Virus record (IMG/VR): IMGVR_UViG_3300001683_000022
Span: 1-64,000 of that record
Direction: 5' to 3' (one strand)
Length of the DNA stretch: 64,000 nucleotides
Origin: a virus
The translations under genes were made by a program, and so were the position numbers. The notes under the pieces were generated by a model that was not told the DNA's origin, ran no database searches, and was given only the letters and a program-made list of their open reading frames with translations. This document shows positions 2,165 to 49,460 of this stretch, in pieces. Every line of letters starts with the position of its first letter. Positions within the stretch are counted from its first letter, which is position 1.

Positions 2165-2182
2165 AGTTTAGGGAAATATAAC

Positions 2183-3712
2183 ATGAAAATTGTTATTGTA
2201 GGTGGAGGATCTTCTGGTTGGATGACTGCAGCAGCGATTGCTTATAAACATCCAACCATAGATTTGACACTTATCGAAAGTGAAGAACTTGGAACTATTG
2301 GTGTAGGGGAATCAACACTTGGTCATATTAATCGTTTTTTTCATCTATTAGATTTGAAAGATACTGATTGGATGGCTGAGTGTGATGCAACATATAAAGT
2401 AAGTATTAAGTTTGAAGATTTTTGGAAAAAGGGGGAAGCGTTTCAATACCCTTTTGGTAAAATTACCACACCATGTGGTAAAGAGGCACAAGACTTCTTT
2501 GTTAGTCGTGCTATGTTTCCTGATGAATTGAAGACAACAGACTTTGCAAAGATTTTTTCTTTAAATACTCACTTAGCAGACTCTAATACAATACCGCCAG
2601 ATAATATACCAAATCAAGGGTTTTACAAAGACCATATGGCATATCATATGGATGCGATTAAACTTGCAAAATATTTAAAGAATAGATACTGTCAAAACAT
2701 TACACATATCCTAGATACGGTAGAGAATGTTGATACTGATTATATCGGGGTTTGTGGGCTTGATCTAAAGCAAGGAGATAGGATAGAAGGCGATTTGTAT
2801 ATAGATTGTTCTGGGTTTGCATCAATTCTTTTAGACAAAGCATTGAAGGTGAAACATCATTCATTCCCGTATCTTCTAACAGATTCTGCAGTGGCTGCTC
2901 GTATACCACGCAAAGATAAAACCAATATTAATAACTATACTAACTGTAAGGGTTTAAGTTCTGGATGGGTGTGGGATATACCTCTGTGGAATAGATCTGG
3001 AAAGGGGTATGTCTATAGTTCAAAGTTTCAAACATCAGAAGATGCTGAAGCAGAATTTAGAAAAGAAACAGAGTGGGATGGTGAGATTAATCATATTAAG
3101 TTCAGACAAGGTTATCATGAAAAGGCGTGGTATAAGAACGTAGTAGGAATTGGTTTATCATATGCATTTATTGAACCATTAGAATCATCTGGATTAATGA
3201 CCACACATGAGAACATTATTGAATTATGTGGGGTACTGAAACGTGCAAAGGGTAACATAACCTCAATTGATAAACATATGTATAATACGGTTGTCGGGAA
3301 TTTAACACAAAAATTTTCTGGGTTCGTGGCCTTACATTATGGTCTAAGTCGAAGAAATGATACCCCATTTTGGAAATATGTCACACAAGAAATAGAATAT
3401 GATGTCGAGGATGTATCTATTGTTCGTGAGGATAATACTACACGCGAACTTTCATATATGTACGGTAATCAATATTATAATGCAGAACATGATGGTCTAC
3501 TTTACATTGCAGCCGGTACCGATTTCAATATTATTAATAGTGAACAGATTTACTGGTTAAACCATCAAGGGCATTATACTGATGATACCCAACGATCTAC
3601 AATTAAAAATTTGAAAGAAATAATTTCAAACAGAAAAGATATGGTAAAGACATTGCCATCACACTTCAAATACCTTTGCACAGAAATTTATAGGGCAAAA
3701 AGAGATGACTAA
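2183..3712 (+). CDS. Flavin-dependent tryptophan-halogenase-like protein
   Basis: The 509-residue product belongs to the FADH2-dependent halogenase family, which uses flavin hydroperoxide and halide to halogenate aromatic substrates. Visible hallmarks are the N-terminal dinucleotide-binding loop GGGSSGW (residues 7-13), Lys72 in the segment that holds the family catalytic Lys (Lys79 of PrnA), the signature GWVWDIP at 261-267, and EPLESSG with Glu334-Ser335 at the position of PrnA Glu346-Ser347. Length is normal. It lies 18 bp after the fibre gene and overlaps the next gene by 8 bp, so it is expressed with the late tail/lysis genes. Related halogenases are known from cyanophages, for example VirX1 of Syn10. 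The substrate cannot be read from the sequence. Confidence 0.9.
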   Translation: MKIVIVGGGSSGWMTAAAIAYKHPTIDLTLIESEELGTIGVGESTLGHINRFFHLLDLKDTDWMAECDATYKVSIKFEDFWKKGEAFQYPFGKITTPCGKEAQDFFVSRAMFPDELKTTDFAKIFSLNTHLADSNTIPPDNIPNQGFYKDHMAYHMDAIKLAKYLKNRYCQNITHILDTVENVDTDYIGVCGLDLKQGDRIEGDLYIDCSGFASILLDKALKVKHHSFPYLLTDSAVAARIPRKDKTNINNYTNCKGLSSGWVWDIPLWNRSGKGYVYSSKFQTSEDAEAEFRKETEWDGEINHIKFRQGYHEKAWYKNVVGIGLSYAFIEPLESSGLMTTHENIIELCGVLKRAKGNITSIDKHMYNTVVGNLTQKFSGFVALHYGLSRRNDTPFWKYVTQEIEYDVEDVSIVREDNTTRELSYMYGNQYYNAEHDGLLYIAAGTDFNIINSEQIYWLNHQGHYTDDTQRSTIKNLKEIISNRKDMVKTLPSHFKYLCTEIYRAKRDD

Positions 3713-4115
3713 AAGAATACTAACCAACATAAACGAACCTACTAGGGTTTTAGAAGTAGTAGAGTTAGGTAACGAGTTTGATGTTCATTCCGATTTTGAA
3801 TGGAAAACTTGTGAGGATGATAATGTTACATCTGAATATAGTTGGGAAATTATTAATGGTGATTTAGTAGTTAATAAAGAAAATGTAACAGATAACCAAG
3901 ATTTTATTAATAATGGATATAAATTTGCCCGAATGATTGCTTACGGTGATATTGGGGATCAGTTAGATATGATATACAAGGAAATCAAAGAAACTGGTTC
4001 AATTTCAATTGATGGAGAGTGGGCTACACGTATTAAACTGACTAAGGAAAAACTTCCTAAAAATGACGCGTCTGCAGTATTACGGTATTATGACGATGTT
4101 GCGGATGAAGGTTGA
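3705..4115 (+). CDS. Small tail-associated phage protein
   Basis: The 136-residue protein is acidic and its ATG overlaps the halogenase stop by 8 bp, suggesting translational coupling. The C-terminal half contains a segment reading IGDQLDMIYKEI. This type of motif is common in small phage proteins encoded beside tail fibres and often annotated as fibre-associated or hypothetical. No enzymatic motif is visible. A role in fibre assembly is possible from position only. Confidence 0.75.
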   Translation: MTKRILTNINEPTRVLEVVELGNEFDVHSDFEWKTCEDDNVTSEYSWEIINGDLVVNKENVTDNQDFINNGYKFARMIAYGDIGDQLDMIYKEIKETGSISIDGEWATRIKLTKEKLPKNDASAVLRYYDDVADEG

Positions 4116-4728
4116 TATATCCACTGAATATGGTATTCCGATTTATAAAGTTAATATTGGTATTAATACCCATTTAATTCATCATGTTGAAGAATACTTC
4201 TCTAGAGAAGGGGCGATGCATCATTTGGAGAGGGGTGGTTTGAGTACGCGCACCTTTGATGGTGGGATGCACTTACACAATATTGAAGAATTTAAAGATT
4301 TATCTGCAGATATTATTAAACATGCAGATGTGTATTGGGGTGGATATGGACTAGACAGGTATTATGAACCATATATTAAACAGTCATGGTCTAACAGACA
4401 TTACAGGGGTAATGAAACACTATCACATATTCATTCAGGTTCCCCTATTGTTGCAACTTACTATATGCAAGCTCCTGAAGATAGTGGTAGGATTTACTTC
4501 GAGAACCCATTAGAGTATCACCAATGTCATGAGCCTAGATCCAATGACAATAGACGTTATATTGACATTGAAGACGGTACTTTATTGATTTTTCCTGGGT
4601 TCTTAAAACATGGAACCGAAGCATCACAAACAGATCTTCCACGAACTGTTCTTTCAATTAACTTTGGTTATGAAAATAGAAAGCCAGTAATTACTTATCA
4701 GAGAAAACAAAATGAAAATATCAATTAA
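4105..4728 (+). CDS. Putative 2OG-Fe(II) oxygenase
   Basis: The product resembles the phage-rich 2OG-Fe(II) oxygenase family with an H-x-H iron site (TIGR02466/PF13759 type). Counting from the ATG at 4105, His108 and His110 sit in LSHIHSGSP, followed by a YYMQAPEDSG strand, then His169 in FPGFLKHG as third iron ligand and Arg180 as the likely 2-oxoglutarate anchor. Upstream in-frame ATGs at 4063 and 4090 are also possible; 4105 was chosen because it minimises overlap with the preceding gene, but no start has a good ribosome site. It ends 17 bp inside the next gene. Together with the halogenase it forms a pair of oxidative tailoring enzymes beside the tail fibres; the target is unknown. Confidence 0.8.
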   Translation: MKVDISTEYGIPIYKVNIGINTHLIHHVEEYFSREGAMHHLERGGLSTRTFDGGMHLHNIEEFKDLSADIIKHADVYWGGYGLDRYYEPYIKQSWSNRHYRGNETLSHIHSGSPIVATYYMQAPEDSGRIYFENPLEYHQCHEPRSNDNRRYIDIEDGTLLIFPGFLKHGTEASQTDLPRTVLSINFGYENRKPVITYQRKQNENIN

Positions 4729-5594: not shown

Positions 5595-6279
5595 AGCGCA
5601 TCAAATGGCAACATTAAGCGAATACGCTTATCTTATGCCTCAGAAATTTATCCAAACTTGTAAAGCGTTTACACCTAGCTTTCATAGTGCAAAAGGCACC
5701 CAGTGTTATACGTTATGGGATGATAACACGTTGATCTTCGCCTTCAGGGGAACTGAGCTAAAACTAGATGATATTAAAACTGACCTTGATTTTCTAAAGG
5801 AAGAGACATCACATGGTAAAGTACATTCTGGGTTTCTGAGCGCATATGAAGATATTAAATCTAAAATTAAAACTGATTATGATATGCTCTCCAGCGGAAG
5901 GAATGTATATTTCACAGGGCATAGTTTAGGAGCTGCCCTCAGTACGTTAGCAATTGACGATATTGGTAAAGCTGAAGATTCTTTATATACGTTTGGCTCA
6001 CCAAGAGTAGGATGTTCTAACTTTGTTAAGCAGTTTAATAGTAGATTTAAAAACACTTACAGATATCGTAACGAAAATGATATTGTTACTAGAGAGCCTA
6101 TGGCTTTACTTGGTTATCGCCATGTGGGTGATTGCTATTATTATGATGGTGCAGGTGAATTAACAATCAATCCTTCATGGTGGAAACGATTTAAAGAATA
6201 TAGCAAAGGTATATTGAAAGATAAACTTGATATGTTCAAAGATCATTCAGTATCAAATTATGTAGGACTATCAAAATGA
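5587..6279 (+). CDS. Class 3 (alpha/beta-hydrolase) lipase
   Basis: The 230-residue protein is a Lipase_3-type hydrolase. The nucleophile elbow TGHSLGAALS carries Ser113, followed by Asp165 in NENDIVTREP and His179 in YRHVGD, in the canonical Ser-Asp-His order and spacing. The upstream FAFRGTEL segment supplies the typical oxyanion strand. There is no signal peptide. It overlaps its neighbours by a few bases within the lysis cassette (membrane coiled coil, lipase, lipoprotein, lysozyme). This suggests late expression and a possible job on the host outer or inner membrane lipids during lysis; release of virions or fatty-acid supply are alternatives. Confidence 0.85.
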   Translation: MNRAHQMATLSEYAYLMPQKFIQTCKAFTPSFHSAKGTQCYTLWDDNTLIFAFRGTELKLDDIKTDLDFLKEETSHGKVHSGFLSAYEDIKSKIKTDYDMLSSGRNVYFTGHSLGAALSTLAIDDIGKAEDSLYTFGSPRVGCSNFVKQFNSRFKNTYRYRNENDIVTREPMALLGYRHVGDCYYYDGAGELTINPSWWKRFKEYSKGILKDKLDMFKDHSVSNYVGLSK

Positions 6280-10571: not shown

Positions 10572-11759
10572 ATGGCTGAACAAATTTATAATGACCCATC
10601 AAACGGAGCACTGTCTTCCGTAGGGCCACAATTACGTACTGATTATTATCAGAAAAAAGCACTTATTGAAGCAGCTAGAGAAAGCTACTTTGGACAGTTA
10701 GCTGATACAACAGCTATGCCCAAAAATATGGGTAAAACTATCAAACGATTCCATTATCTGCCTATTTTAGATGATGCTAACATCAATGACCAAGGTATTG
10801 ATGCTGCCGGTGTAGCAATCACTGATGGTAACTTGTATGGTTCATCTAAAGATGTTGGTTACATCTCAGGTAAGTTACCTGCATTGTCAGAAACTGGTGG
10901 ACGAGTTAACCGTGTAGGTATGACACGTTTCCAAATCGAAGGATCTATCACTAAGTATGGTTTCTTTGAAGAGTATACAAAAGAGTCTATAGACTTTGAT
11001 ACTGACGCAGAACTTGAAATGCACATTAACTCAGAAATGGTTAAAGGTGCTAACGAGATGACTGAAGATATGATCCAAATGGATCTATTAGCAGGTGCTG
11101 GTGTTATTCGTTATGGTGGTATTGCTACTGTTGATAGTGAAGTTAGTGGTGAAGCTGGTGAAGTATCTGTAATTGATTACAATGACCTAATGCGTCTTGA
11201 AATTGATTTAGATAACAACCGTTGCCCTAAGAATACTAAGGTAATTACCGGCTCTAGAATGATTGATACTAAAGTCATTGATGGCGCTAGATACATCTAT
11301 GTTGGTTCAGAAATGATTCCTTCATTGAAGAAGATGACTGATAACTTTGCTAATCAAGCATTCATCTCTGTAGCTAATTATGCTTCAGCAGGTAATGTTG
11401 CAAGAGGCGAAATTGGTTCTATTGGTGGCTTTAGAGTTATTGTAGTTCCTGAGATGCTTCATTGGGCAGGTGCTGGTAAAGCTGTAACTACTAATACTGG
11501 TTACCGTGAAACTAACAATGCATACGATATTTATCCTATGTTGGTTGTTGGTTCTGGATCCTTTACTACTATTGGTTTTCAAACTGACGGTAAGACTACT
11601 AAGTTTAAAATCAAGCATGTTAAGCCTGAGTCTGAAGTGTCATATAGCTCAGCAGATCCTTTTGGTGAAATGGGATTCATGAGTATCAAATGGTACTATG
11701 GTTCAATGATTTTGAGACCAGAAAGAATTGCTCTAGTGAAAACTGTAGCAGAATACTAA
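10572..11759 (+). CDS. Major capsid protein (N4-gp56 family)
   Basis: The 395-residue product matches the N4-gp56 family of HK97-fold capsid proteins (TIGR04387 type). Evidence includes the N-terminal LRTDYYQKKALIEAARESYF helix, the KRFHYLPILDDANINDQGID segment and the C-terminal MSIKWYYGSMILRPERIA strand. The gene is preceded by an AATTAGGAACA ribosome site and followed by a strong hairpin terminator, as expected for a very highly expressed structural gene. Confidence 0.96.
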   Translation: MAEQIYNDPSNGALSSVGPQLRTDYYQKKALIEAARESYFGQLADTTAMPKNMGKTIKRFHYLPILDDANINDQGIDAAGVAITDGNLYGSSKDVGYISGKLPALSETGGRVNRVGMTRFQIEGSITKYGFFEEYTKESIDFDTDAELEMHINSEMVKGANEMTEDMIQMDLLAGAGVIRYGGIATVDSEVSGEAGEVSVIDYNDLMRLEIDLDNNRCPKNTKVITGSRMIDTKVIDGARYIYVGSEMIPSLKKMTDNFANQAFISVANYASAGNVARGEIGSIGGFRVIVVPEMLHWAGAGKAVTTNTGYRETNNAYDIYPMLVVGSGSFTTIGFQTDGKTTKFKIKHVKPESEVSYSSADPFGEMGFMSIKWYYGSMILRPERIALVKTVAEY

Positions 11760-17830: not shown

Positions 17831-20800
17831 ATGGCAGTATCAAAGTATTCGGTATCTTCTACAGGATCTTATTCGCTAAAACAATTAGAGGTTCTTAAAG
17901 CCAAAGCGGATAAGGAAAGTAAATTAGGTGGATGGGAATCTTTACCTTTAGACGAAAATAATCCTGTAACTGATGGGGATACTTTTAACGCTGCCACTGG
18001 CCCTAGTGTACGTTTAGTTCCTGATAGGCCAGGACATGTTCTAGATACTTTTGAGACAGATAAGGGTCGTCCTCTTACTGCTAGGGAGGAATTAGGCAGA
18101 GAGGTTGATAGAGGGTACCTTGCTCAAACTTTTAGGCTGGATGCTAGTCAAATTTCTAATAAGACTTTATTTAATCAAGCAGAAAAAGCTAAACAAAATG
18201 TAATAAGAGAATTAGGTGGGGATACTGAAATTCTTGTTAAGGGTAGTAACTTACACCGTGATACCGGTGTATTTGGTAGACTCCTTAGGGCTGCCAAAAA
18301 GGACGGACAAAATTCAAATGGTGGTACGGAACAGCACTTCAGTGATATTAATAATACTCCTGAATTAAATGCTAAGTATCACACCCTAGATAATGCGATT
18401 AAGAAGAACTTAGATCTTCAACAGAAAAAAGATGCCCGTGACATTGCTACCAAACATTCTGTTAGTGATAAATTTAGAAAGACCCTTCTAGGAGGATCTA
18501 TAAATGCCGTTGCTGGGGGAGTAACAACCGCGTTCGATATTGGGGCTAATGTTATTAATTCTCCTGCTAGAGCGATTCAGTATACCCTCACTAAGAATAT
18601 ATCTAATGAAGATAGGGCAGCTGTTAAGCATCTTAAAATAATGCAAAAAGCATCTAAGATAAATAATATAGATTACGTACCTTCCGAGAATGAGGAGCGT
18701 CTATTAGCAAGTAATCCATCCCAAAAAAGTATAGTAGAAAGATTGGCTACGGCTGAGGCTTTAGAGTCTGGTTTCATAGCTAAAATTGATAAAGTTAATG
18801 AGCACATAAGTAAGATATTTAATACTGCCGGTACGGATGCACTGGTTAAATATGCTGGAGATCTTTATGAATACTCTATTGTTCCTATGGGGCAAGAGGG
18901 TATTGAAGATATTCAAAATGGGCAGGTAGCTGAGGGGGTTATTAAACTTTCAGGAGCTGTATCTAATGCAGCAACTGCAATATTTGGTGCTGCGGCTAGA
19001 GAACCTCAAGCTGTAGTAGAAGAGGTAATCAAACAGATCCCTAATGCATTTGCTGCTACGAGAATGACCGGATCATTTTTCTTTGGTAACTTTACTAAGT
19101 TAGCTAGTGAGGCTAGGGATAAATTTATGGAGGTCAATGGTAGACTACCTGAGGGAGAGGAAGTAAACCGTTTGTTGGTAGATACGGCATTATCAGCTGC
19201 AGCTGATACTGTTTCAGATAAGCTTATGGTATCAAAAGGTGGGGTAGCAAGATCAGTTGTACGTGAAGGAGCTACAGAGGGTACTCAAGACCTTTTAGAG
19301 CAAGATGCATATAAACAAGATATTTCTAAGTTAGAAGGTAGGTCTGCATTTGCTGCTAATGTTTTAGGACAGGTAGCTGGTGGAGGAACTACAGCTGTTA
19401 CTAGTCCTAAAGCTGCATTAAAAGAAGCAGTAGCTACACCTCTTGCTGTTGCGGGTGCGCTAGGTAAACCAGCTAAAGCACTTATAAAAGCTCTTACACC
19501 TCAAGGTATTCAAAATACAATAACAGAAAAAGCAGATGCACTTAAACAACAAGCTAAGGATAGAGCCAATTTAGCTGAAGGTGACTTATCAAGTTTGCCT
19601 CCTAAAAATAGGATTGATTATCTAATAGCAAATACCCCTAAAAATGCTTCTGAAACCCCCGACAATATGGATAAGCATATTGACGATATTAAGGGGGCTA
19701 TATTTGAAATGCACGATGGACTAAATAAAGAGCTAGAGAACACTGAGGCAACTAACGAAGAGCGCGATATACATAGGAAAGAAACTGATGAATATCAGAT
19801 TAGAGCATTTGCAGCCATAAAAAAACTAAGGGAAGTAAAGATTGGATCAGCCATAGACGTAGTCATAGGAGCTAAGGAGAGCACTCCTAAGAGCGAAACA
19901 GCAATATCTAGTATCATTGGCTCAATGGATTTTGATTCGACAGTCTCAGAAGAACAGGCTAAGAAATTACTTTCTAGTAACTTATTGTCTGAAGATCAGA
20001 AAGTAAAAGTAGAAAGTTATATAGAAAAAAGAAAGTCTATGTCTGAGGTATCAGACAATATTCTTAATGGTGGTGAAGGGTTTTTAGGTATTAACGACCA
20101 TACCAGTGCGGTAGGCTTAGGTGTAGAATCTAATAACAGTAAAGCTACTGAATCTACTCTAATAGGGTTTAAAGCATGGGCAGAAAGACACTCCAATAAA
20201 GCTTCTAAGCTTCAGGATGTGCTTAATGCGTTAACTACTGGAGACATGAATGCAGCAAAAAAAGCTCTAGCTGATGCAAATGCTATTGTAGTAGAGGGAA
20301 GTACACCTTTTTATTATGATCCAGCAAATTTTGAGCCTTTTACGCGCCTAGCTAAGACAGTCATATCTGAAGCCAATTTATTGCAGGATGCTTTTAATGA
20401 GGTAAAGGGTAAAGCTGTAGAAGCTATCCCTGAACTATCTAAGAGCGAAAAAATATCTTTGACTGTGAGCCATATAGGTGAGCAGGTAAAAACCTCTGAG
20501 AACACTGAAGAAGAGGTAGAGGTAAACACTGAATCTATACCCTCAGAAAATAGTACAACAGATACCGTAACTACACCTACACCTACTCAGAATAGTACTG
20601 ACACAGTAGTTGAGGCATCTAAAGTTTCTCAAGAATCTTTAGATTCTAATATTGCTACTGTTGAAAATAATATATCAAATTTAAGAGAAGAAGATGGGTC
20701 TGTTGCCGATGAAAATATGGCTGAATTTACTAAGTTGCGAAAAGAATTAGTAGAAGCTACATATAATGCTACGAGAGGTGATAATACAGGAAGCATAGTA

Positions 20801-22432
20801 GTTGTTAAATCACGCCCAACGTCTAAAGAGGGTGATCCGCAAGTATTGTCAGGGAAAAAAGTTGAAACAGCAGAAGAAAATATCGAAACTATAATTACTA
20901 ACGGCATGGCTTCAGGATCAACTACTGATGCTATTATTCAATTAATTAATACTAAATATAGTTTTAACAGTAGTGACCAGAATCTTTTTATTAAATATGT
21001 AGAAGATAGGGTTAATAAGGCACCAACTGTAGGGAATAATAAATTGCCATTCTCTCAATGGAGAAGAGGTGAAACTACTCAAGTTGTAGCTGAACCTGTA
21101 GTAGAGCAAAATACCTCTGGGGGAGTAAAAGCGAGGGTTCTTACATTAAATAATGCACATAAATTTCTCACAAAAACTAGATTTAACAATGTTAGTAGTA
21201 GTAGTCAAGAGTTCTCAGACTTTAACACGGTCTTGTCTCTTATGGTTGAAAATGCCTTAGTTACAGATAAGCAGAATAGAGATGAAGCAGAATATATGTC
21301 AGATATTTATGAATATATACTTGCTACCTACTCTGGAAATACATTACCTAAATCAGGTTTAGATCCTTTAATTGTATCCAGTATTAAGAGGATATTTAGC
21401 CCCTATAGTGTAGGTAATAGTCTTACCAGAGATTCTAGAGAAATAGGCGGTATAAGTCTTAAAGATTTAGTGAAATTTAAAGCATCTACTATTATGCATA
21501 CCACTAAGGATGCTTTAGGTAATGCACATAAAGAGGATACTTTATCTGAGCAAGATAAAAATAATCTAAAAGATATAAATACTTTTGTAAAAGGCTTATC
21601 TAAGGTTATTAAAGAACAAATATTTAATTCTAAGGAAACAGCACAGTCTGCAAGTAAAACAGAACAAACTACTTACACTGACTCTAAGGGTAAAACACGA
21701 ACAATTACAACACCGTTAGGACATATACAGAATCCCCTTATTTATTTTATGAAAGCTAAGCAGATCACTTCGCTTAGGATGGATCGAAAAGAGGATGGGA
21801 CATATGAGGTAATTGAATATCTGCGTAATAACCCTGATACTAATCCTGAGATGGATCAGAACTTCTATGATTCCATTGGTTTAGCTATTGTGGAATGGAT
21901 TAAGAATGATTCTCAGAGTACTCTTGAAAATTATGCTGAAGATCTGAAAGCAATCCTTGGATTACCTGACGGTATTGAACCATCTGATTTAGCATGGGAG
22001 AAGATTAGGTTTGGGGGTACTGTACGTACAAGACTTGCATCTGATATAGGCGGTAAGATTGCTAAAATTTTAGGTATGTCACAGGATAATACTGCTGATG
22101 GCTCCATCTATTCTAAGATAGAAGCAAATTTAGGACTTATAGCTATAGATGTATTGGAGAGAGAAGGGCATGTAGAACTTTCTGAATTACCTGCTGCACT
22201 TATGAAAGATATGGTGGGCAAGAAGGATTCTACCGATAGTTCTCAACTTAATATTGAAGAAGAAAATGGAGCTCCTACCTTTCTTGTAAAAGCTGCTGAA
22301 GGTACATACCTAGCAGAAAATAGTGATGAAAAACTTCAAGGATTGTCTAACGATTTAAGACGTATTAAAGAGGCAGGTACAAAATCCAAGGAAATAATTA
22401 AAACCTTGTTTGATGTGGGTCACTACAGATAA
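17831..22432 (+). CDS. Virion RNA polymerase, N-terminal part (first reading frame)
   Basis: The 1533-codon frame precedes, and is out of phase with, the frame that carries the polymerase catalytic motifs. Together they give about 3550 residues, close to the roughly 3500 of N4 gp50. Residues 46-62 (VTDGDT then VRL) and 147-152 (VFGRLL) resemble the conserved parts of a staphylococcal-nuclease-like domain, possibly degenerate. The rest is Ala/Lys/Glu-rich helix, like the N-terminal part of N4 vRNAP. In N4 the minimal polymerase begins about 420 residues before the T/DxxGR arginine. By analogy the last roughly 300 residues here should be the N-terminal polymerase subdomain. Confidence 0.85.
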   Translation: MAVSKYSVSSTGSYSLKQLEVLKAKADKESKLGGWESLPLDENNPVTDGDTFNAATGPSVRLVPDRPGHVLDTFETDKGRPLTAREELGREVDRGYLAQTFRLDASQISNKTLFNQAEKAKQNVIRELGGDTEILVKGSNLHRDTGVFGRLLRAAKKDGQNSNGGTEQHFSDINNTPELNAKYHTLDNAIKKNLDLQQKKDARDIATKHSVSDKFRKTLLGGSINAVAGGVTTAFDIGANVINSPARAIQYTLTKNISNEDRAAVKHLKIMQKASKINNIDYVPSENEERLLASNPSQKSIVERLATAEALESGFIAKIDKVNEHISKIFNTAGTDALVKYAGDLYEYSIVPMGQEGIEDIQNGQVAEGVIKLSGAVSNAATAIFGAAAREPQAVVEEVIKQIPNAFAATRMTGSFFFGNFTKLASEARDKFMEVNGRLPEGEEVNRLLVDTALSAAADTVSDKLMVSKGGVARSVVREGATEGTQDLLEQDAYKQDISKLEGRSAFAANVLGQVAGGGTTAVTSPKAALKEAVATPLAVAGALGKPAKALIKALTPQGIQNTITEKADALKQQAKDRANLAEGDLSSLPPKNRIDYLIANTPKNASETPDNMDKHIDDIKGAIFEMHDGLNKELENTEATNEERDIHRKETDEYQIRAFAAIKKLREVKIGSAIDVVIGAKESTPKSETAISSIIGSMDFDSTVSEEQAKKLLSSNLLSEDQKVKVESYIEKRKSMSEVSDNILNGGEGFLGINDHTSAVGLGVESNNSKATESTLIGFKAWAERHSNKASKLQDVLNALTTGDMNAAKKALADANAIVVEGSTPFYYDPANFEPFTRLAKTVISEANLLQDAFNEVKGKAVEAIPELSKSEKISLTVSHIGEQVKTSENTEEEVEVNTESIPSENSTTDTVTTPTPTQNSTDTVVEASKVSQESLDSNIATVENNISNLREEDGSVADENMAEFTKLRKELVEATYNATRGDNTGSIVVVKSRPTSKEGDPQVLSGKKVETAEENIETIITNGMASGSTTDAIIQLINTKYSFNSSDQNLFIKYVEDRVNKAPTVGNNKLPFSQWRRGETTQVVAEPVVEQNTSGGVKARVLTLNNAHKFLTKTRFNNVSSSSQEFSDFNTVLSLMVENALVTDKQNRDEAEYMSDIYEYILATYSGNTLPKSGLDPLIVSSIKRIFSPYSVGNSLTRDSREIGGISLKDLVKFKASTIMHTTKDALGNAHKEDTLSEQDKNNLKDINTFVKGLSKVIKEQIFNSKETAQSASKTEQTTYTDSKGKTRTITTPLGHIQNPLIYFMKAKQITSLRMDRKEDGTYEVIEYLRNNPDTNPEMDQNFYDSIGLAIVEWIKNDSQSTLENYAEDLKAILGLPDGIEPSDLAWEKIRFGGTVRTRLASDIGGKIAKILGMSQDNTADGSIYSKIEANLGLIAIDVLEREGHVELSELPAALMKDMVGKKDSTDSSQLNIEEENGAPTFLVKAAEGTYLAENSDEKLQGLSNDLRRIKEAGTKSKEIIKTLFDVGHYR
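22398..22432 (+). other. Frame junction inside the virion RNA polymerase gene
   Basis: In this stretch both vRNAP frames are open. Passing from the first to the second frame needs a +1 step (one base skipped). Skipping one G of the GGG at 22417-22419 gives a smooth join (FDV then VTTDKDV). The only purine-rich ribosome-like site (AAGGA at 22388-22392) is about 20 bases before the ATG at 22413, too far for normal initiation. The site is therefore a natural frameshift, a true gene split, or a one-base sequence error. Confidence 0.8.
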
Positions 22433-25400
22433 GGATGTTTCACAGACACTTAAAGGGACTCTTCAAGATACCTCTACAACCCAACGTGAGGGTCTGTTAA
22501 AACAATCTCAGGTGGAGAATAAAGTATTCACTAAAATGGTTGACATGGTCAATCTAATAGGCAGAGATGCCATATTAGCTATCATAGGTAATGTTACTGA
22601 AGATGATCTATCTCAGGAACATATTACTAGAAGAAAAGGAATCGAGAGTAATAATAAATCTCTTGAAAGAGGGGTAGATGATTTCAAAGCATTCCAAGAA
22701 TCCTTAACAGCTGATGAGATATTTTACTTACTTCATAATGTATGGAGATCTGGGCGTATAGGGGTCAATGGTAAGATTAATAATCAAACCAATAAATACA
22801 TGAGATGGATGTTTGGCCCTAAGTCTTGGGAAGTTGAGATAGACGTTAAGAAAAATGATGAAAAACTAGGACAATTTAAATTAGCTATCCTAGAATCTTT
22901 TGGTATTAAGATTGAACATCTAAAAAATATTGAAGAGGTAGAATCTAAATTTCAGGAGGTATATGATAAATTTTCTAAAAATACCAATATGGGATTTGTT
23001 CGGCTTCACGCCAAAAAGAATAGTGAAGAATCCACTAGTGAAGGGGTAGATATAATTGTAAAGGCAGTTAAAGATGCTGGGGAAGGGATGCACTCCTTTG
23101 CAGGTTTGATTGCTTTACGTGAGTATCATTACGCTGTTTCAGAAGACTCTAAAAGATCAACAAAGTTTACAACTACCCTAAGTAGAGAGATAGACGGCAT
23201 AACCAATGGTGTATTAATTGGTTTGGTTCTTATGGGTGGAGGTAAGAATTTTGATGAGATGCGACCTAAGCTAGAAGCTGCTGGATTATTTCCTGATCCT
23301 ACAATGGATTACCAAAAATGGTATAACGCTGTTGAGTCTGGTGATATTGTTCATGATGATTTATATGAAGGCTTAACTAGGGATATCATTAGTGGTAAGG
23401 CTACGGCTAAAAAATTAATTACTAACCCGAAGAGTTTAATTAAAGATCATCCAGTACATAAGCACTACACTAAACTTGTTAGCTTATCAGGGAATGCGCA
23501 AAATGCTATTGACGTAATTGATACTACATTCTCTATAGTGGGGGATATCATAGCTGACGGTACCATTACAAAGATAGGTAGAAAGCTCTTTAAATATCCC
23601 CTGATGATTACTCTATTTGGTGCATCTGTAAATAAAGTAGCAGATGCTTTAGCAGAAGAAACTATAGAGAAGATATATGACTTAGGAATGAAAGCGGAAG
23701 ATACAAGTAATAACTCTGCAAAACAAGAGAGATTATTTACCGAAGTAAATAACTATATTGCTACCCTGTTAGGAAATACAGAGACAAAAATTGTTAATGG
23801 AAGAGCAAGAGATTTTACGTTTACTCCAACACAGGTAAATATCCTAAGTGGCAAAGTATCTGCTATGTATAGAGGGTTACTACAGGAATCCTTAGAAAAA
23901 AACTATGGGGATTTTATTAGAAACAGAGCTACATTTAATTCAGTGTTTGAGGTGATCCAACGTACCTTTGACTTAATGTTTGAGAAGAAGTATGCAGAGA
24001 AATTAAAAGAGATAAATGCAAATAAGGAGGGAGTTACTCCTATATTGGCTTTATCTAAAGAAGCTACTATTGCTTTAGTTAAATCTCTTAGAGACTTCCA
24101 TCCTTCACTAAAACATGCCCTTTCTGATGAAAATATAGAGACAGAATTATCATTCCTTAAAGGAAAATATAAACCTGACTATTCTGAAACACATACCACT
24201 CAAGTTCAATATGCTAGCCCTCATAAGCCTGAAAGAAAATTCTACCAAAAGAGTACAGAAACAGGTATGTGGGAAGACTATATTAAGGACGACTCAGTAA
24301 CTAGTGCTGTAGGTCACGGTACTAGTTACCAGCTTGAAGACCCAGGACTATCTCCCACTATTACACTTATTCACAATACTGATTCGACAGTACCCATTTC
24401 GGTATTTAATGCAGGGTTTGAAGTGTTAAATGTACATGATGCCTCGCAGGGTGCGTTGGATGTTATAGCAGATATGGCAGAAACTATGAATGCTTCTCTT
24501 GCTACTAGTATGTTCGATCACGATGTCTTTGGTGCAGCATTAGCCTCATTAAATAGAGCTATTGATAGTTTAGATGCTACGGACAAGAAGAAAATAGATA
24601 ACCTTATTGCGGGTTCTGGGGGATCTTCCCTTAACCCCCTAAGTAATTATTTCTTAGATAGTAATGGCGATGGAATATTTCTCTCCCTAGAAGAGTATAT
24701 TGACTCCATACAAGGTGTTGGAGAGGAGGCCAATTTAGTTACTGCAGAAATTAATGACCGTGTAGGTAAGGTAGCTAATTACTCAGGTATGGTTGGATCT
24801 AATAGAGGAAAGTCAACTGACTCAACTAGTGGGCATGATTCAGATGTAACTAATTTAATAGAGGAAGTTAATGAAGGAAAACCTCTTACCCTAGAAGAGT
24901 ATTTTGACAAGCAAAGGAAAGAACATGACCTGAGTGACTCAACAGAGCCAAGTCAGACAGTGATAGCTTCATGGATGAAAGGTTATGACCAGCTTGGCTC
25001 AACAGATAAGGCACAACCATTTGACTTCAAAGGTGAACCTACTAGGAAGCTTACAGGAGCTAATACTGAATCTACTTTTGAATCGCTAGGTAAGATAGAT
25101 AAGCAAAATAGTGATTCTACAGCTCATACCACTCATCTAAGGGGCGTAATACATAATCTGATAAACAAGGTTATCACTCCTCTTGAATTGTACGTACAAA
25201 GGACTAAAGAGCAGAACTCTGGTGGATTTGATCCTGCGTACAATCGTATGGTTGTAAATGTATCAAATACTACCTCTCCTACAGCATCGGGTATACAGAT
25301 GTCTGCCCAGACAGTGTTTGTACATGAACTGACCCATCACATTACAGAGAGTGCTTTAGAGAACAAAGTAGAAAACCAGTTAATAATTAATCGTATTACA

Positions 25401-28400
25401 AGACTATTTAACCATGTTAATGATAGCCTTTCAGAAGCGGATAGGACTAAGTATGCGTACATTTTTGATAACCAAAATCATACAGAAGTAAAAGAGGTTA
25501 CTGCTTTAGGTTCTGTTGCTACAGGTACTAAGAATAACGGAATAAAAGAATTTATAGCATTTGGTATGTCTGAGCCGGGATTTATTAAGTTACTGTCAGA
25601 GATGGATACTCCTAAATCCGCTAAGATTTTTGGGGATACTATTTCTGGTACCATTTCTAACATATTTAATTTATTAATGGATCTGTGGCAAACCAAAGTA
25701 AAGAATAATAATGGTAAGGTTTCTACTGAATTAGATTTATTAGTAGCTAAGCTTTCTACGGCTCATATCAAGCAATCAAATATTTTATTTAGACAATTTG
25801 AGATCACTAACGGTATGGATCTTAAAGCTGCCCAGATTATTAGAGATACGGTATTGGCTCCTATACATAAATTCTTATCTAGTCAGGCAGTACAAAATTC
25901 TAAGAAGAAATCCATAAGCAATATAGGTAAGATTGCTGAGAAGATAACTAAAGTATCATTTAAAGGCTTCCAGAGGGCTGTAGGAGACTCTTTACTACTA
26001 GCGGATATAACCGAGAAGAGTTTACTTAGAAGCCTTGTTACAGAGGCTGTAGGTAATACAGTGGATGTTGCTAAATACCATACATTATTAAGTGCGTCTA
26101 AAAAGTTTATAGACACTCTCAGAGAGGAGATAGCTACCACGGTAGATAAGTTCCTTAGAGAATCTTTTGTCGGTGGCTCTGTGGATGCAAAGACCTCTGT
26201 AGCTATTACTAAAGTAATACTTAAAGGCGACATGGAAGCTCTATTTAATTTGTATGAAGTAGAGCAGATACAAGATTATTTGGATAATGAGAATAAACTA
26301 AATACACAAATACAAACCGTAGAAGATAGGTTGGTTACCCGTACTGAAGGAAATTATTACATAAACAACTCTCGTAGCTTAGGCCATTTTATGGTTACAG
26401 GGCAGCATTTAATTGATGGGGCTGGGCTACATAACGTAGAACAAATAGCTAAGCAATTATCCATTAGAAAAGGTAGGAATCTTGAGCAAGACCAGAAAAG
26501 TCTTAAAGAGGATTTAACTAGACTCTCTAGATTATATGCTTTGAAATATTCTTCTACTGCACATAAGGACTTAGTGGCTAAATCCATTAAAGCTGAATTT
26601 GCTGAGAGTAAAGAAGAGAATGGTATTCTTAATACTATTAAACAGCACAGAGATTATAAGAAAGATCAGCTGGATAGAATTTTAGGTGGTAATGAGATTC
26701 TGGTTGTGGATGGGGGGATAAAGGAGAATTATAATCCTCATACATCTGCTGTTATAGCTACTGCTATAGAAGGACAGAAGCTACTTAAACAAGGATTTAC
26801 TAGATCAGCTAATCCAATCAAAGGAAGTAAATTAGATAAGGGTGGTGTTAAGTATATGTACTACTCTGATGTAGCGGGGGTAGATACATATAATAAAATG
26901 ATTGTATCTATGACCAGTAAAAATTCAGAGTTAAGTGATATACCTACTGGATACGCATCCGTTGATGGTTTACGTAACTATATGGGACAACAGCTTATAT
27001 CTAAATTAGATAGGGTTGCACTTGATAAGGAAGTATCTAAACAGAGAAGATCCATTATAGTTGATCCGCAGCCATCTTCTTTTATTCCTTCATTTAATAG
27101 GAAGGGGGTATTTGTAGGGGCTAAGTATGCTATTACAGAGGCAGAGAAAGATTCTATCTTACAAAAGAATAATTCCTTTAGTAATGTTCTTGGTTCAATG
27201 TCTGCAAGTATTTCTGATAAGGTGAATACAGAGGCTATTAACAAGGAAGCTGTAGATATTGCTTATAAAGACTTTAAGGATAACTATGCTAAGAATCCTA
27301 ATGCATTTGTAGATGTTAGTAAGACTAGTAAAGATCCTGCTTATAGGGAGACTTATAATATTCTACCTAGTGAGATGAAGAAATATATGAAGGAGACTTG
27401 GGGTACTGATGGATTTTTAATTAGGAGAGAGGTCGTAAGTACTTTCTTCGGATATAGAAAATTAAGTATTACTAATTGGATTAGACCTAGTACAGATTTA
27501 GAAAAAATTAATCATAAAATTACTAGAATCATTGGGGATAGTCTGTATAAAAACCTAAATTTTAATAAGGTTAAGACGGTAGAAAATGTATGGCAAGAAG
27601 TAATAAAGACTACTAAGGACACTATTGTAATTAAGAATCTTTCGACTCTTACAGGTAACATAGCTAGTAATAATTGGTTACTTTGGTTGTCTGGTGTGGA
27701 TAAGGCTGATATTTATAAGTATCAAGCCATAGGTGTAGTTGCTTTACAATCCTATTTAAAGGACAGTGTAAAGCTAGGGCAGTTAGAGTTAAGACTTAAA
27801 CATAACCCTAATGTTGCAGGTATTAAATCTAAGATTAATAATCTTAAGCATCAAATAGCTAGTAATCCTGTTAAGCCTATGGTGGATTCAGGTATCTTCC
27901 AAACTATTGTAGAGGATATTGCTAATGATACTGAGTTGTACACTTACAAGAGTAAGTTAGATGAAATTGTTGAGCCATTAACTAATAGAATTAATTCTAA
28001 GGTTAAGGAAGGTGTGTCTCAGGTAGCAATGACACATGATACTCAGCTATATAAGTTTTTAAGGGATTCTACCCAGTATAGTGATTTCATCGCTAGATTT
28101 GCACTACACCAACATAATCTAAAAAAGGGTATGAGTGAAGCAGATTCTCTTGTAGATATTGTAGATAGTTTTATTAACTATGACTTACCTACTCATCCTC
28201 TGCTTCAGTATGGTAACGATATGGGGTTAATTATGTTTACTAAGTTCTTTATCAGGATTCAGAAAGTAATCCTTAAGAAGGTAGGTAAAGCACCTGCAAG
28301 ATTCTTAGGCTTACAGATGTTGGAAATGTTTACATATAACCAAGCAGATATAACAGATGCAATTGGGACTCCAGATGCAATTTATAATAAATTTCATTTT

Positions 28401-28463
28401 AATCCGGTGACCCTAATTACACCCATTGTTTCCGAGCTTCCTGCAGTTCAGGCTACTTATTAG
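22410..28463 (+). CDS. Virion RNA polymerase, catalytic and C-terminal part (second frame)
   Basis: The 2017-codon frame has the single-subunit (T7-like) RNA polymerase motifs in N4 vRNAP spacing. They are an xxSGR element with Arg116, motif A REIDGITNG with catalytic Asp262, motif B with Arg391-Lys395-Met399-Phe403-Gly404, and motif C VLNVHDASQ with catalytic Asp677. Phe403 replaces the usual Tyr. Downstream is a HELTHH sequence (His972-Glu973...His976) with an EFIAFG segment about 65 residues later, suggesting a zinc-peptidase domain. Numbering is from the TTG at 22410; ATG 22413 is next, and neither has a ribosome site nearby. The frame is open from 22398, so it is probably read by fusion with the upstream frame. 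Confidence 0.92.
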   Translation: MMWVTTDKDVSQTLKGTLQDTSTTQREGLLKQSQVENKVFTKMVDMVNLIGRDAILAIIGNVTEDDLSQEHITRRKGIESNNKSLERGVDDFKAFQESLTADEIFYLLHNVWRSGRIGVNGKINNQTNKYMRWMFGPKSWEVEIDVKKNDEKLGQFKLAILESFGIKIEHLKNIEEVESKFQEVYDKFSKNTNMGFVRLHAKKNSEESTSEGVDIIVKAVKDAGEGMHSFAGLIALREYHYAVSEDSKRSTKFTTTLSREIDGITNGVLIGLVLMGGGKNFDEMRPKLEAAGLFPDPTMDYQKWYNAVESGDIVHDDLYEGLTRDIISGKATAKKLITNPKSLIKDHPVHKHYTKLVSLSGNAQNAIDVIDTTFSIVGDIIADGTITKIGRKLFKYPLMITLFGASVNKVADALAEETIEKIYDLGMKAEDTSNNSAKQERLFTEVNNYIATLLGNTETKIVNGRARDFTFTPTQVNILSGKVSAMYRGLLQESLEKNYGDFIRNRATFNSVFEVIQRTFDLMFEKKYAEKLKEINANKEGVTPILALSKEATIALVKSLRDFHPSLKHALSDENIETELSFLKGKYKPDYSETHTTQVQYASPHKPERKFYQKSTETGMWEDYIKDDSVTSAVGHGTSYQLEDPGLSPTITLIHNTDSTVPISVFNAGFEVLNVHDASQGALDVIADMAETMNASLATSMFDHDVFGAALASLNRAIDSLDATDKKKIDNLIAGSGGSSLNPLSNYFLDSNGDGIFLSLEEYIDSIQGVGEEANLVTAEINDRVGKVANYSGMVGSNRGKSTDSTSGHDSDVTNLIEEVNEGKPLTLEEYFDKQRKEHDLSDSTEPSQTVIASWMKGYDQLGSTDKAQPFDFKGEPTRKLTGANTESTFESLGKIDKQNSDSTAHTTHLRGVIHNLINKVITPLELYVQRTKEQNSGGFDPAYNRMVVNVSNTTSPTASGIQMSAQTVFVHELTHHITESALENKVENQLIINRITRLFNHVNDSLSEADRTKYAYIFDNQNHTEVKEVTALGSVATGTKNNGIKEFIAFGMSEPGFIKLLSEMDTPKSAKIFGDTISGTISNIFNLLMDLWQTKVKNNNGKVSTELDLLVAKLSTAHIKQSNILFRQFEITNGMDLKAAQIIRDTVLAPIHKFLSSQAVQNSKKKSISNIGKIAEKITKVSFKGFQRAVGDSLLLADITEKSLLRSLVTEAVGNTVDVAKYHTLLSASKKFIDTLREEIATTVDKFLRESFVGGSVDAKTSVAITKVILKGDMEALFNLYEVEQIQDYLDNENKLNTQIQTVEDRLVTRTEGNYYINNSRSLGHFMVTGQHLIDGAGLHNVEQIAKQLSIRKGRNLEQDQKSLKEDLTRLSRLYALKYSSTAHKDLVAKSIKAEFAESKEENGILNTIKQHRDYKKDQLDRILGGNEILVVDGGIKENYNPHTSAVIATAIEGQKLLKQGFTRSANPIKGSKLDKGGVKYMYYSDVAGVDTYNKMIVSMTSKNSELSDIPTGYASVDGLRNYMGQQLISKLDRVALDKEVSKQRRSIIVDPQPSSFIPSFNRKGVFVGAKYAITEAEKDSILQKNNSFSNVLGSMSASISDKVNTEAINKEAVDIAYKDFKDNYAKNPNAFVDVSKTSKDPAYRETYNILPSEMKKYMKETWGTDGFLIRREVVSTFFGYRKLSITNWIRPSTDLEKINHKITRIIGDSLYKNLNFNKVKTVENVWQEVIKTTKDTIVIKNLSTLTGNIASNNWLLWLSGVDKADIYKYQAIGVVALQSYLKDSVKLGQLELRLKHNPNVAGIKSKINNLKHQIASNPVKPMVDSGIFQTIVEDIANDTELYTYKSKLDEIVEPLTNRINSKVKEGVSQVAMTHDTQLYKFLRDSTQYSDFIARFALHQHNLKKGMSEADSLVDIVDSFINYDLPTHPLLQYGNDMGLIMFTKFFIRIQKVILKKVGKAPARFLGLQMLEMFTYNQADITDAIGTPDAIYNKFHFNPVTLITPIVSELPAVQATY

Positions 28464-37193: not shown

Positions 37194-37379
37194 TTAGTCC
37201 TTAATAATATAATTACCTACAAAAGAGTTAAATTTTATTGATGTAAATCCACTTAATTTTAAAATACTGGATTTAATATTAGGATTTAACTCGGCTTCCT
37301 TTAATAAAAAAGCTTTATAGTCTAACCCATATTCATAAAGGAGTCCTGCATCAATCACAATGCTCCTAAAACTACACAT
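37194..37379 (-). CDS. Small hypothetical protein after DNA polymerase
   Basis: A 61-residue product starting MCSFRSIVIDAGLL. Its ATG overlaps the stop of the polymerase gene by 8 bp and its stop is 5 bp before the zinc-finger gene. No motif recognised. Confidence 0.55.
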   Translation of the reverse strand: MCSFRSIVIDAGLLYEYGLDYKAFLLKEAELNPNIKSSILKLSGFTSIKFNSFVGNYIIKD

Positions 37380-38469
37380 TTTGTACTCTCATTAGTATTT
37401 CCCTTTTAGTTGCTTTATTAGGTATTGTTATTGGTTTGTTCCACGTAGGAAATATGTCTATCTCTGCACCTAATTTAACAGTGTCATGTTTAATTTCCTC
37501 TAATTCTTGCCATTCCATACACTCAACAAGATTTCTATTTACCCATTCCACACAACCTATAGTGTCCTCTGTAATGAGATATATAGCGTCATGAATTAAT
37601 GCAATAGGGGAAATCTTGTATCTATATTTAGAGGCATGTACCCTCCCCATAAATGCATTAGCAGCTCTATTATTTAACAATCCATAAGATTGTCCTAAAG
37701 CATTACCTGCTGTGCGTCCCTCTGCTCCAGCAGCGTGGGGTGTATTTCTTTTATTTAAAAGTGTCTGAGCAAGTATAGGGGTTCGTACACGTAACCCGAA
37801 GGCGACAGTAACGTATCCATCTTTTGTTGCTTGTTCTAGCTTAGAGGCTACCCAATCATCGGATACCTTATAGAGCTTATGGTATTGATCCTCAATATCC
37901 ATAGCAGCTTCTATAGTTAACCCAATATTCTTAACTAGGGTAGCCCATGTACCTTGGTAGGTAAGGGCAAATGTAGGTATCTTGCTTTCTTGACGTAGGT
38001 GTGGATACGCATGCTTAATGCTATTAATGCTGTCTACGGTATCTACAATATCTGGCATCAGATGTTTGAAGTAAGCATACGCCCTCAGGCAATGACCGTC
38101 ATAATTATCAAGGTAAACTTTTAATTTGTTAGGATCCTTAGTAGTAAGCGCAGATATATAATCCTCAAGAGAATTAAAATCAGCACCTAAAAATACTTTA
38201 CCCTTAGGACTATAGAAGCATTGCTTTACTATCTTTGCATACTTAGAGCCACTAGGAAGATTTTGTAAATTAGGCCCACTACTGCTAAGCCTACCTGACA
38301 CTGTTCCATTGAGATTAAAGTTACCATGAAGATAATAAACACCATCTTCTTTATAGATACTATTTTTTTCAAAAGCTTTAATGAATGTACCTAAAATTTT
38401 ACTTACTTCAGATACACTAATCAAATCTTTAAGTAGCTTAGCCGTAGCAATAGCTTCCTGTCTATCCAT
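37372..38469 (-). CDS. DNA polymerase, family A, polymerase domain (C-terminal piece)
   Basis: The 365-residue product is the palm/fingers of a PolI-type polymerase: TVSGRLSSSGPNLQNLP (56-72), motif A FLGADFNSLE with Asp97, motif B with Arg159-Lys163-Phe167-Tyr171, and motif C LIHDAIY with His293-Asp294. Motif B reads YQG instead of YG and motif C has Ala295 instead of the usual Glu. The gene starts inside the end of the exonuclease piece (8-bp overlap) and its ATG has a very strong ribosome site (GGAGGAGG six to nine bases upstream). So it can be made as a separate subunit. With the upstream piece it totals 887 residues, near N4 gp39. Confidence 0.93.
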   Translation of the reverse strand: MDRQEAIATAKLLKDLISVSEVSKILGTFIKAFEKNSIYKEDGVYYLHGNFNLNGTVSGRLSSSGPNLQNLPSGSKYAKIVKQCFYSPKGKVFLGADFNSLEDYISALTTKDPNKLKVYLDNYDGHCLRAYAYFKHLMPDIVDTVDSINSIKHAYPHLRQESKIPTFALTYQGTWATLVKNIGLTIEAAMDIEDQYHKLYKVSDDWVASKLEQATKDGYVTVAFGLRVRTPILAQTLLNKRNTPHAAGAEGRTAGNALGQSYGLLNNRAANAFMGRVHASKYRYKISPIALIHDAIYLITEDTIGCVEWVNRNLVECMEWQELEEIKHDTVKLGAEIDIFPTWNKPITIPNKATKREILMRVQNV

Positions 38470-40030
38470 TAAGTTCCTCCTCCGTAAGTGAATATTCTTG
38501 AATTAATTGGTTTAAATGTTTGGTTAGTACTTTAGCCCCTACAGCAGGTAAATCCGTTTTAGTAGTATCTAAAATTTCTAATCCTAAATGTTCATGAAGT
38601 AGCTGGGCTACTTGCTTATTACTCGCTGGATTAAATGTAATCATATCGAATTCTTCTATCGCTACTTGTTTTACCTTTAATAGTAAATTCTTCTTAGCCC
38701 ACGCATCCTTACGTAGTACATCCTCGAAAGTACTTATAATAGGTGAAGCACTGATACTGCTTGTATGTTTATAAAGTACATTACTTAACTCAGATTTGGC
38801 TATTATTACTTGATCCATATCTATAGGCATACCTGTTAATTCCATCTGTAAGATAGTTTTAATGGATGGCTTCATTATGGTTTCATATATTTCCAATTGG
38901 GAATCTTTTACCATAATAGGATAATTCTTATTGAATACATACCATGTAGATAGACAATCAATTAAGTTATATTTGAGTAAGGTGTCTTTAGGAATCTTAC
39001 GTATATTCTTGATATCATCTACAGCATAATTACCTGCATATTCAAATGCCTGATCTTTCAATCCAAGTTTGTTACCTGCTGTGGTATTGGTAGCTAAATA
39101 GCTGATAGCTTTTGTACACTCGAAGTCCCTGGTAAGGATCTCAATTCCTCTAAGCATTCCCTTTATATCTAATAGGGAATCCATAAATAATTCATAGATT
39201 AAAATCTTAATATCATAATTTGCATTATGGTATATGAGCTTACCCTTATATGATCTAAAGAACTCTTTCAGTAATCTTTTTATCTGGGGGTTATGTTCTT
39301 TATAACCAAATAATACTACACCGCTGTCACACATTTCTCGCCCAGTGGGAAATGCTTCGTAGTCACATAAAAATGCTAAACCATTGTGCTGATCTAGACC
39401 AAAACCAATAGTACCTAATCCTGCTTTGTGGAACTTAAGGGAGAAGGTTTCACAATCACATGTAAGGGCCTCAAATTCATGAAGCTTAGCCAATGCAGTC
39501 CTAATATCTAAAAAGTCCTTAGGATAGCTCTGAGAGTGAATTATGTCTATTCCTATCTCCTTATAAGAACCTACCGTATGGTCTGCTACAGCCTTATTGG
39601 TAATATCTATTTTCTCCTGCAATACAGGATTATAGAATAATGCTTTATAGTTAGGGATTAAGAAGATATTTAAGTGATTAAAGTCCTTAATTGTACAAAG
39701 TACTGCTGATCCATAATAGGGCTCAGTCTTCCTCACTTTAGTCAAAGCCTTAAAATAGTTTCCATTGGCTACTACTAAGGTTTTTACGTCTAAACTATCT
39801 AACGCGGGAAGTAAGGTGCTTAAATATTCTTTACAAAATCCAATAGGAGCATTACCTTTATCATTATAGTTAAGACTAAAAGAAATAATGTCTTCTTCTG
39901 CTATACCTAATTTTACTAGCGGATGTACATAAGCATCTTCTATTTCTTTTTTATCTAATCTAGATTCTTCAACTAATACGGCAATTTTATATTTGTTATT
40001 AGGATTTTCCTTATGGATTATGTGTTTCAT
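38462..40030 (-). CDS. DNA polymerase, family A, exonuclease domain (N-terminal piece)
   Basis: The 522-residue product carries a 3'-5' exonuclease. ExoI Asp-x-Glu lies in TCDCETF, ExoII in HNANYDIKIL, and ExoIII in YNLIDCLSTWYVF. The thumb-like region follows (ETIMKPSIKTILQMELTGMPID, then NPASNKQVAQLLHE) and stops just before the polymerase palm. It lacks polymerase motifs, which lie in the next gene in a +1-shifted frame. The two pieces should associate to form one replicative enzyme. Confidence 0.92.
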   Translation of the reverse strand: MKHIIHKENPNNKYKIAVLVEESRLDKKEIEDAYVHPLVKLGIAEEDIISFSLNYNDKGNAPIGFCKEYLSTLLPALDSLDVKTLVVANGNYFKALTKVRKTEPYYGSAVLCTIKDFNHLNIFLIPNYKALFYNPVLQEKIDITNKAVADHTVGSYKEIGIDIIHSQSYPKDFLDIRTALAKLHEFEALTCDCETFSLKFHKAGLGTIGFGLDQHNGLAFLCDYEAFPTGREMCDSGVVLFGYKEHNPQIKRLLKEFFRSYKGKLIYHNANYDIKILIYELFMDSLLDIKGMLRGIEILTRDFECTKAISYLATNTTAGNKLGLKDQAFEYAGNYAVDDIKNIRKIPKDTLLKYNLIDCLSTWYVFNKNYPIMVKDSQLEIYETIMKPSIKTILQMELTGMPIDMDQVIIAKSELSNVLYKHTSSISASPIISTFEDVLRKDAWAKKNLLLKVKQVAIEEFDMITFNPASNKQVAQLLHEHLGLEILDTTKTDLPAVGAKVLTKHLNQLIQEYSLTEEELNG

Positions 40031-48482: not shown

Positions 48483-48494
48483 TATTTATTCCTT

Positions 48495-49370
48495 TTAATA
48501 GTTATTAATAATTACTTTCTTATGTAAGTTAATGAGACTCTTCTTATATTGAGTTCCCTGATAGTTAATATGATAACCCTTACAATATGATCTACCTCTT
48601 GAATCATATGCATGTACCATATTAAACTTGTTACCTTTAATTAACATATCTACATATACTTGTTCGGACTCTTTACTTAAAGACTCAAACTGTAACCTCT
48701 TTTCAGATGTATCTAATGTTTTATTAGACTCTTCTATATACTCAAGCATATACTCATCAATAGATAAGGAAGTATTATTCATTATGTTTAATACATCTAA
48801 CCCTATAGGTAATTCATGCCTATCATTAAGTACTACTGATTCATTAAATGTAAGATAACCTGAAGTATTATTGTCTACTACTACATCAGGAGTACACACC
48901 ATAGGAGGTAAATACTTACACTTCTCTATTAATTGTTTGGTTTTATCTGATAAGGTATAGTTGGATTCAATAGTAATACTTCCTGTTTCACTATCACTTG
49001 CTAGATGTACATCCCATAGATCTGTTTCTGCCATAAGTATTACTAATTCTGATGCAGTTTTTATACCCATAGTAATATCTTCATAACCTAATAAAGGGCC
49101 TATTTGACCTACAATATTCTGAATAGACTGTTGCCCTTCTAAAGGAAATATAACCGAGAATATATCAAGTACTATCTCTCGATGGTTTACATCCCATAAG
49201 GGAGCTATACGAATATTCTTAGAAGAATAATATGATTTGCTTAAATAGTGAGCTAATATTAATTCACAATCTGTTGTGGATTCTTCCGCTACTTCTTCAT
49301 AGATATATTCTCTAATATTTTTACGGGAATATGTTTCTTCCGTATGTATTTGTTCCAGACGATCTAACAT
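48495..49370 (-). CDS. Phage RNA polymerase II, N-terminal subunit (N4 gp15-like)
   Basis: The 291-residue product ends with the DxxGR motif of T7-like RNA polymerases (HAYDSRGRSYCKG, Asp256, Arg260), while motifs A-C lie in the next gene 12 bp downstream. I place the start at 49370 (MLDRLEQIH) because AGGAG lies six bases before that ATG; a longer frame from 49400 lacks such a site. The promoter-like 10-mer at 49461 lies about 90 bases upstream. Confidence 0.9.
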   Translation of the reverse strand: MLDRLEQIHTEETYSRKNIREYIYEEVAEESTTDCELILAHYLSKSYYSSKNIRIAPLWDVNHREIVLDIFSVIFPLEGQQSIQNIVGQIGPLLGYEDITMGIKTASELVILMAETDLWDVHLASDSETGSITIESNYTLSDKTKQLIEKCKYLPPMVCTPDVVVDNNTSGYLTFNESVVLNDRHELPIGLDVLNIMNNTSLSIDEYMLEYIEESNKTLDTSEKRLQFESLSKESEQVYVDMLIKGNKFNMVHAYDSRGRSYCKGYHINYQGTQYKKSLINLHKKVIINNY

Positions 49371-49460
49371 ATGATGCTCCTGTAGTAAGGTACAGACCAA
49401 GGCCGATACCTCATAATTAAGTTAAAAGCTCTTAAACGGCTTCTGAGGCCCTAGAATAGT

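Follow-up and report, generated by a model that had tools for sequence, protein, structure and literature searches.

An N4-like virion RNA polymerase gene in two overlapping reading frames, probably because an indel has shifted the frame in a linker of variable length

The window, the whole 64,000-nucleotide stretch analysed here, covers bases 1-64000 of the 69,250-base record of an uncultured virus, and both the genes that it carries and their order are as in the Schitoviridae (N4-like phages). Portal, tape-measure-like, coat and ejection-protein cluster genes are followed by the virion RNA polymerase (vRNAP) and then, on the opposite strand, by SSB, Sak4, primase, exonuclease, DNA polymerase and a two-gene RNAPII (Table 1); the vRNAP of N4 likewise lies past the structural cluster. 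The window also carries a tryptophan-halogenase-like gene (2183-3712) and a 2OG-Fe(II) oxygenase-like gene (4063-4728), possibly host-modifying, and its coat protein (10572-11759) is devoid of a segment of ~60-110 residues near 10820 that is carried by the ORFs of the related records G001 and G003 and is missing as well from the N4 coat protein.

Table 1. Features of the window and of vRNAP loci in other phages (positions without a prefix are those of the window)
Feature	Position	Strand	Remarks
vRNAP frame 1 (1533 aa)	17831..22432	+	N-terminal domain, linker and first part of the polymerase domain through the beta-intercalating-hairpin region
vRNAP frame 2 (2017 aa)	22410..28463	+	catalytic core and C-terminal domain with HELTH
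Zone of reading-frame change	22410..22433	+	from homology and codon usage
Sole candidate starts for re-initiation within the overlap, TTG 22410 and ATG 22413	22410..22415	+	no Shine-Dalgarno match
Shortened interdomain linker	22412..22451	+	40 nt from conserved Phe to Lys-Gly-Thr anchor
vRNAP_dom_2 (PF21867)	22482..22811	+	frame 2 residues 25-134; begins ~50 nt past the frame change
Family-A DNA polymerase in two ORFs (522 + 365 aa)	38462-40030 and 37372-38469	-	8-nt overlap
Two-gene RNAPII	47490-49400	opposite to vRNAP	
AD45-P1 vRNAP	L242:35624-47306 (NC_021532)		two overlapping frames
pSb-1 vRNAP	L241:394-11182 (NC_023589)		three annotated ORFs; the frame changes once more close to the C-terminus
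Split vRNAP loci	L025:3715-15898, L037:3804-15631, L245:6980-17488		

Frame 1 of the vRNAP has an AGGA Shine-Dalgarno sequence 7 nt upstream of its ATG and ends in KTLFDVGHYR-stop (TAA at 22430-22432), and in frame 2 a stop at 22395-22397 leaves the sequence open from 22398 onwards. These coordinates confirm an earlier note on this DNA, which had described frames of 1533 and 2017 codons overlapping at 22398-22432 and had assigned them to an N4-type vRNAP. That assignment also holds, since both frames match the phrog_2206 'virion RNA polymerase' profile and cover it consecutively (frame 1 to position 1191, frame 2 to 3370 of 3406), and joined they amount to ~3,543 aa, against 3,500 in N4. Frame 2 contains the TxxGR-type motif WRSGR, motif A EIDGITNG, motif B and motif C HNTDS, and the residues R116, D262, R391/K395 and D658 of these single-subunit RNAP motifs (TxxGR, A, B and C) are invariant across 21 sequences; it also contains, in VFVHELTHHI, the HExxH described in the vRNAP C1 subdomain (PMC12633501). 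N4 vRNAP (gp50; polymerase domain PDB 2PO4/3C2P, full-length 9PNR) shares the phrog_2206 family, the catalytic motifs and the C-terminal HExxH. Both halves are fully conserved, with catalytic motifs and HExxH intact and no signs of decay, and a search of the rest of the genome for another intact copy of the vRNAP found none. The frames are offset by +1, the codon-usage score moves from the first to the second at about 22400-22424, and a frame change anywhere within about 22418-22433 fits the homology. The two open frames are consecutive parts of one Schitoviridae virion RNA polymerase with a single frame change, from which a functional phage would presumably make one protein. vRNAP lengths range over about 2,840-3,820 aa (PMC10654107), and the record presents two frames in place of a single one of that size.

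In the alignment with N4 vRNAP, which is one 3,500-aa frame, the reading frame of the window breaks at about residue 1305-1310. This point is ~40 residues past the equivalents of K267/K268 in the beta-intercalating hairpin (mini-vRNAP numbering; PMC4496689) and ~15 residues ahead of the Pfam domain vRNAP_dom_2 (N4 1324-1440). It precedes the TxxGR motif, as WRSGR lies past the break at frame 2 residue R116, so that the division is inside the polymerase and before the xxSGR motif, as previously proposed. We modelled the intact nearest relative, L017, with AlphaFold2 (mean pLDDT 76), and the best match of the model was the N4 mini-vRNAP promoter complex 3C2P (E 2.8e-26); the break site corresponds there to a predicted coil (347-377) between helices 339-346 and 378-388. 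Frame 2 modelled alone (pLDDT 83.8) was mostly coil to residue 22, with its first long helix from residue 23. The break is thus placed by the model at a structural linker, coil in L017 and variable in length among relatives, and a split might be tolerated at such a loop position.

The length of this linker bears on the kind of change involved. Among relatives it measures 60-69 nt or 20-23 residues (96 nt and 32 residues in one of them), all in one frame. When the anchor Lys is taken into the count, the distance from Phe to the Lys/Arg-Gly/Asn anchor in 36 uncultured relatives is 22 residues in 30, 21 in two, 24 in three (L017 included) and 33 in one. The window linker shows a net loss of 23 nt relative to the modal form and of 29 nt relative to L017, and is 8-10 residues below its nearest relatives. 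A single out-of-frame deletion is favoured because it accounts at once for the shift and for the shortness of the linker, whereas a one-base reading needs two events. The one-base skip in GGG suggested earlier is a possible placement but only one of several, because the exact base can be assigned no more closely than about 22418-22433, and it leaves the linker 8-10 residues short. Likewise, the one-base homopolymer error also considered in that note is possible but not specifically indicated, the run being only GGG and the linker being 8-10 codons shorter as well. The site is not a long homopolymer, and an apparent loss of 23 or 29 nt overall is atypical of base-calling errors, two points that count against the indel explanation preferred below. 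Interruption by a homing endonuclease was ruled out by the lack of any insertion at the junction, and an imperfect repeat, GATGT..TCAC, flanking 22434 is too weak to have caused the event.

Unbroken vRNAP frames were found in 12 cultured relatives and in about 91 of the 96 uncultured IMG/VR loci, a set composed of 80 IMG/VR loci and 16 further records. L017 itself has one 3,215-codon frame, with 41% identity over frame 2. No genome with a closer vRNAP was found, searches by junction DNA pattern and by window peptides each gave 0 matches, and near-identical DNA was not detected in cultured phages; a search with the Sak4 protein again returned G001 as the nearest record (Sak4 identity 79%). Because the nearest relatives are this distant, the absence of a shared vRNAP break is weak evidence: all the relatives checked, except for separately explained cases, do read one uninterrupted frame, the comparison proposed in the earlier note, but with the closest only 41% identical it is not decisive. 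The breaks in 5 of 96 loci are a lower bound, given that some loci end at contig ends. L043, 99.7% identical to L091, has TAT and reads through at the position at which L091 carries a nonsense codon, TAA (5991-5993); this codon is close to the RNAP/CTD boundary, between the matches to frame 2 residues 772 and 903. Frame breaks in G019 and G026 occur at homopolymer runs, in G026 together with an ambiguous base (N), and the remaining two, L025 and L037, are true multi-gene vRNAP arrangements. A published survey that came across pSb-1 and AD45-P1 concatenated their vRNAP ORFs and suggested read-through or wrongly called genes as the reason (PMC10654107). It is therefore not unusual for a vRNAP record to contain a break, and the usual explanation is an error or a variant. 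Two further loci, L068:2960-16558 and L089:4166-16252, have unusually long unbroken frames with vRNAP (4,532 and over 4,029 codons), which suggests large extensions, and the vRNAP-like sequence of L111 and L114 comes from contigs that were assigned to an Ilumatobacteraceae and a Lachnospiraceae MAG, perhaps phage contigs that had been binned wrongly.

On the sequence comparisons, the probable explanation is an indel, erroneous or real, that has put one record of a normally single-chain vRNAP gene out of frame. The window would encode an ordinary single-chain N4-type vRNAP of about 3,540 residues, and a small out-of-frame length change would have occurred, in one record only, in the variable linker inside the polymerase domain that connects the catalytic core with the promoter-binding N-terminal part. 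Translation of the sequence as it stands would end after 1,533 residues, and both the core and the C-terminal domain would be made inefficiently. The change may have originated as an assembly or sequencing error, or as a true frameshifting deletion in some genomes of the sampled population, in which case function would be doubtful. This reading is favoured because the relatives and the rest of the genome are intact and start and frameshift signals are absent, and also because comparable breaks in the family (G019, G026, L091 and pSb-1) look like errors or variants. Against it count the natural vRNAP splits elsewhere in the family and the quality of the record: no frame break was found in any other conserved window gene when compared with the ORFs of the three related records G001, G003 and G007, which match the window in single frames with the vRNAP as the only exception, so that a contig-wide indel-error problem is ruled out and the record does not seem generally error-prone.

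A genuine two-piece vRNAP, kept here as the minority reading of what the earlier note called an unusual split of an injected polymerase, is less likely but is the main rival, and several observations speak for it. According to this proposal, loss of linker sequence divided the gene, and its two products, of about 1,533 and 2,015 aa, would both be packaged and reassembled into a working polymerase; the second would arise through termination-reinitiation, starting from ATG 22413 or TTG 22410 a short way before the stop at 22430. The conservation of both halves is in its favour, as is the position of the break in a coil of the L017 model ~15 residues ahead of vRNAP_dom_2, with frame 2 alone being predicted at high confidence from its first helix. 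However, neither of the two starts has a Shine-Dalgarno match, as had been noticed before, while a match of >=3 nt precedes 55 of the 59 window genes (67% of background positions) and one of >=4 nt precedes 39 of the 59 (background 21%), and the case for re-initiation at the frame 2 start is weak.

The DNA polymerase of the same genome serves as an internal control, and it shows that this lineage did split another polymerase. Its second ORF has a strong Shine-Dalgarno sequence, GGAGGAGG, ahead of the ATG, and the C-terminal part is likewise an ORF of its own (371-385 aa) in 12 IMG/VR records, among which G001 and G002 overlap at 99.9% identity; other members of the family have the DNA polymerase as one ORF or apparently interrupted. 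This ribosome site and recurrence indicate a natural, clade-wide split and rule out a second sequence error. On the same comparison the vRNAP break bears neither mark, an own Shine-Dalgarno or sharing by relatives, and it is known from one record only.

Splits of the vRNAP at linkers in other phages also favour two pieces. In L025 (a record of 76,976 bases), L037 and L245 the enzyme is encoded by more than one gene, split at the NTD/RNAP linker, which in N4 is a flexible segment of roughly 100 residues (PMC12633501). The N-terminal domain is there a separate gene of 836-845 aa (phrog_2206 positions 43-736 in L025), and, unlike in the window, other genes lie between the parts: an intervening gene of about 640 aa in L025 and L037 and an additional short ORF in L025, whose RNAP+CTD gene has about 2,409 aa. 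L025 and L037 share 65% identity in the NTD and 53% in the RNAP+CTD, and L245 and L037 are 10-25% apart in DNA sequence, divergences that indicate distinct uncultured phages. Since natural NTD/RNAP splits exist, a real split in the window is plausible a priori; its break, however, is inside the polymerase domain and not at a known interdomain linker, and lacks the ribosome sites found at the starts of the inspected L025 pieces. The vRNAP of the Alteromonas phages AD45-P1 to P4 consists of two overlapping frames, like that of the window, annotated as 'potential frameshift' and identical in four records, but the break is in the RNAP/CTD linker, with an in-frame ATG 7 nt past the stop. The vRNAP of Shigella phage pSb-1 (gp101-gp103) is also broken into several frames, with three breaks near N4 residues 900, 2250 and 3474, none at the linker affected here. 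Finally, the RNAPII of N4 (gp15/gp16), a type of enzyme that the window also encodes, is a T7-like polymerase of two polypeptides and an established natural heterodimer of split halves (PMC4496689), although this enzyme is made inside the cell instead of being injected.

A single extra base in GGG, that is, a one-base error or mutation on a naturally short linker, is improbable and is largely a sub-case of the indel explanation. As N4 itself has about 12 residues (about 36 nt) between the same anchors, 13 would be acceptable, and a one-base difference on such an N4-like linker is conceivable; yet this requires a shortening in addition to the one base, all the nearest relatives have long linkers, and three G in a row are not prone to errors. 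Least probable of all is the programmed ribosomal frameshift (+1 or -2) raised in the earlier note, which would yield full-length vRNAP and a truncated form and agrees with the 35-nt overlap and the +1 arrangement, but which is argued against by inspection of the codons, in that each frame 1 codon from GAT to AGA (GAT GTG GGT CAC TAC AGA, 22412 to 22429) would have to re-pair with a mismatched +1 codon and the overlap has no slippery codon, shift-prone stop, CTT-TGA, CCC-TGA or similar motif, by RNA folding at the background of shuffled sequences (z -0.34) with no stimulatory structure, and by the lack of conservation of the overlap in relatives, which read one frame across the linker.

The 3,500 residues of the vRNAP are threaded through a tail channel of roughly 35 A (PMC12633501), and phages making it in pieces would show which of its parts can be ejected and reassembled separately. 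The break in the window most likely carries no such message. If a two-piece enzyme were nevertheless true, it would be a heterodimeric vRNAP, split inside the polymerase domain, in which the catalytic core and the N-terminal module that binds the promoter hairpin are separate chains, each of them packaged, ejected and, once in the host, reassembled with the other, and, together with the NTD-split phages and the AD45 phages, it would make vRNAP fission recurrent. Split vRNAPs would have escaped the published survey, because proteins under 2,500 aa were dropped there (PMC10654107), and the phages with a separate NTD gene (L025, L037 and L245) are a naturally occurring test case for the 'beads on a string' model.
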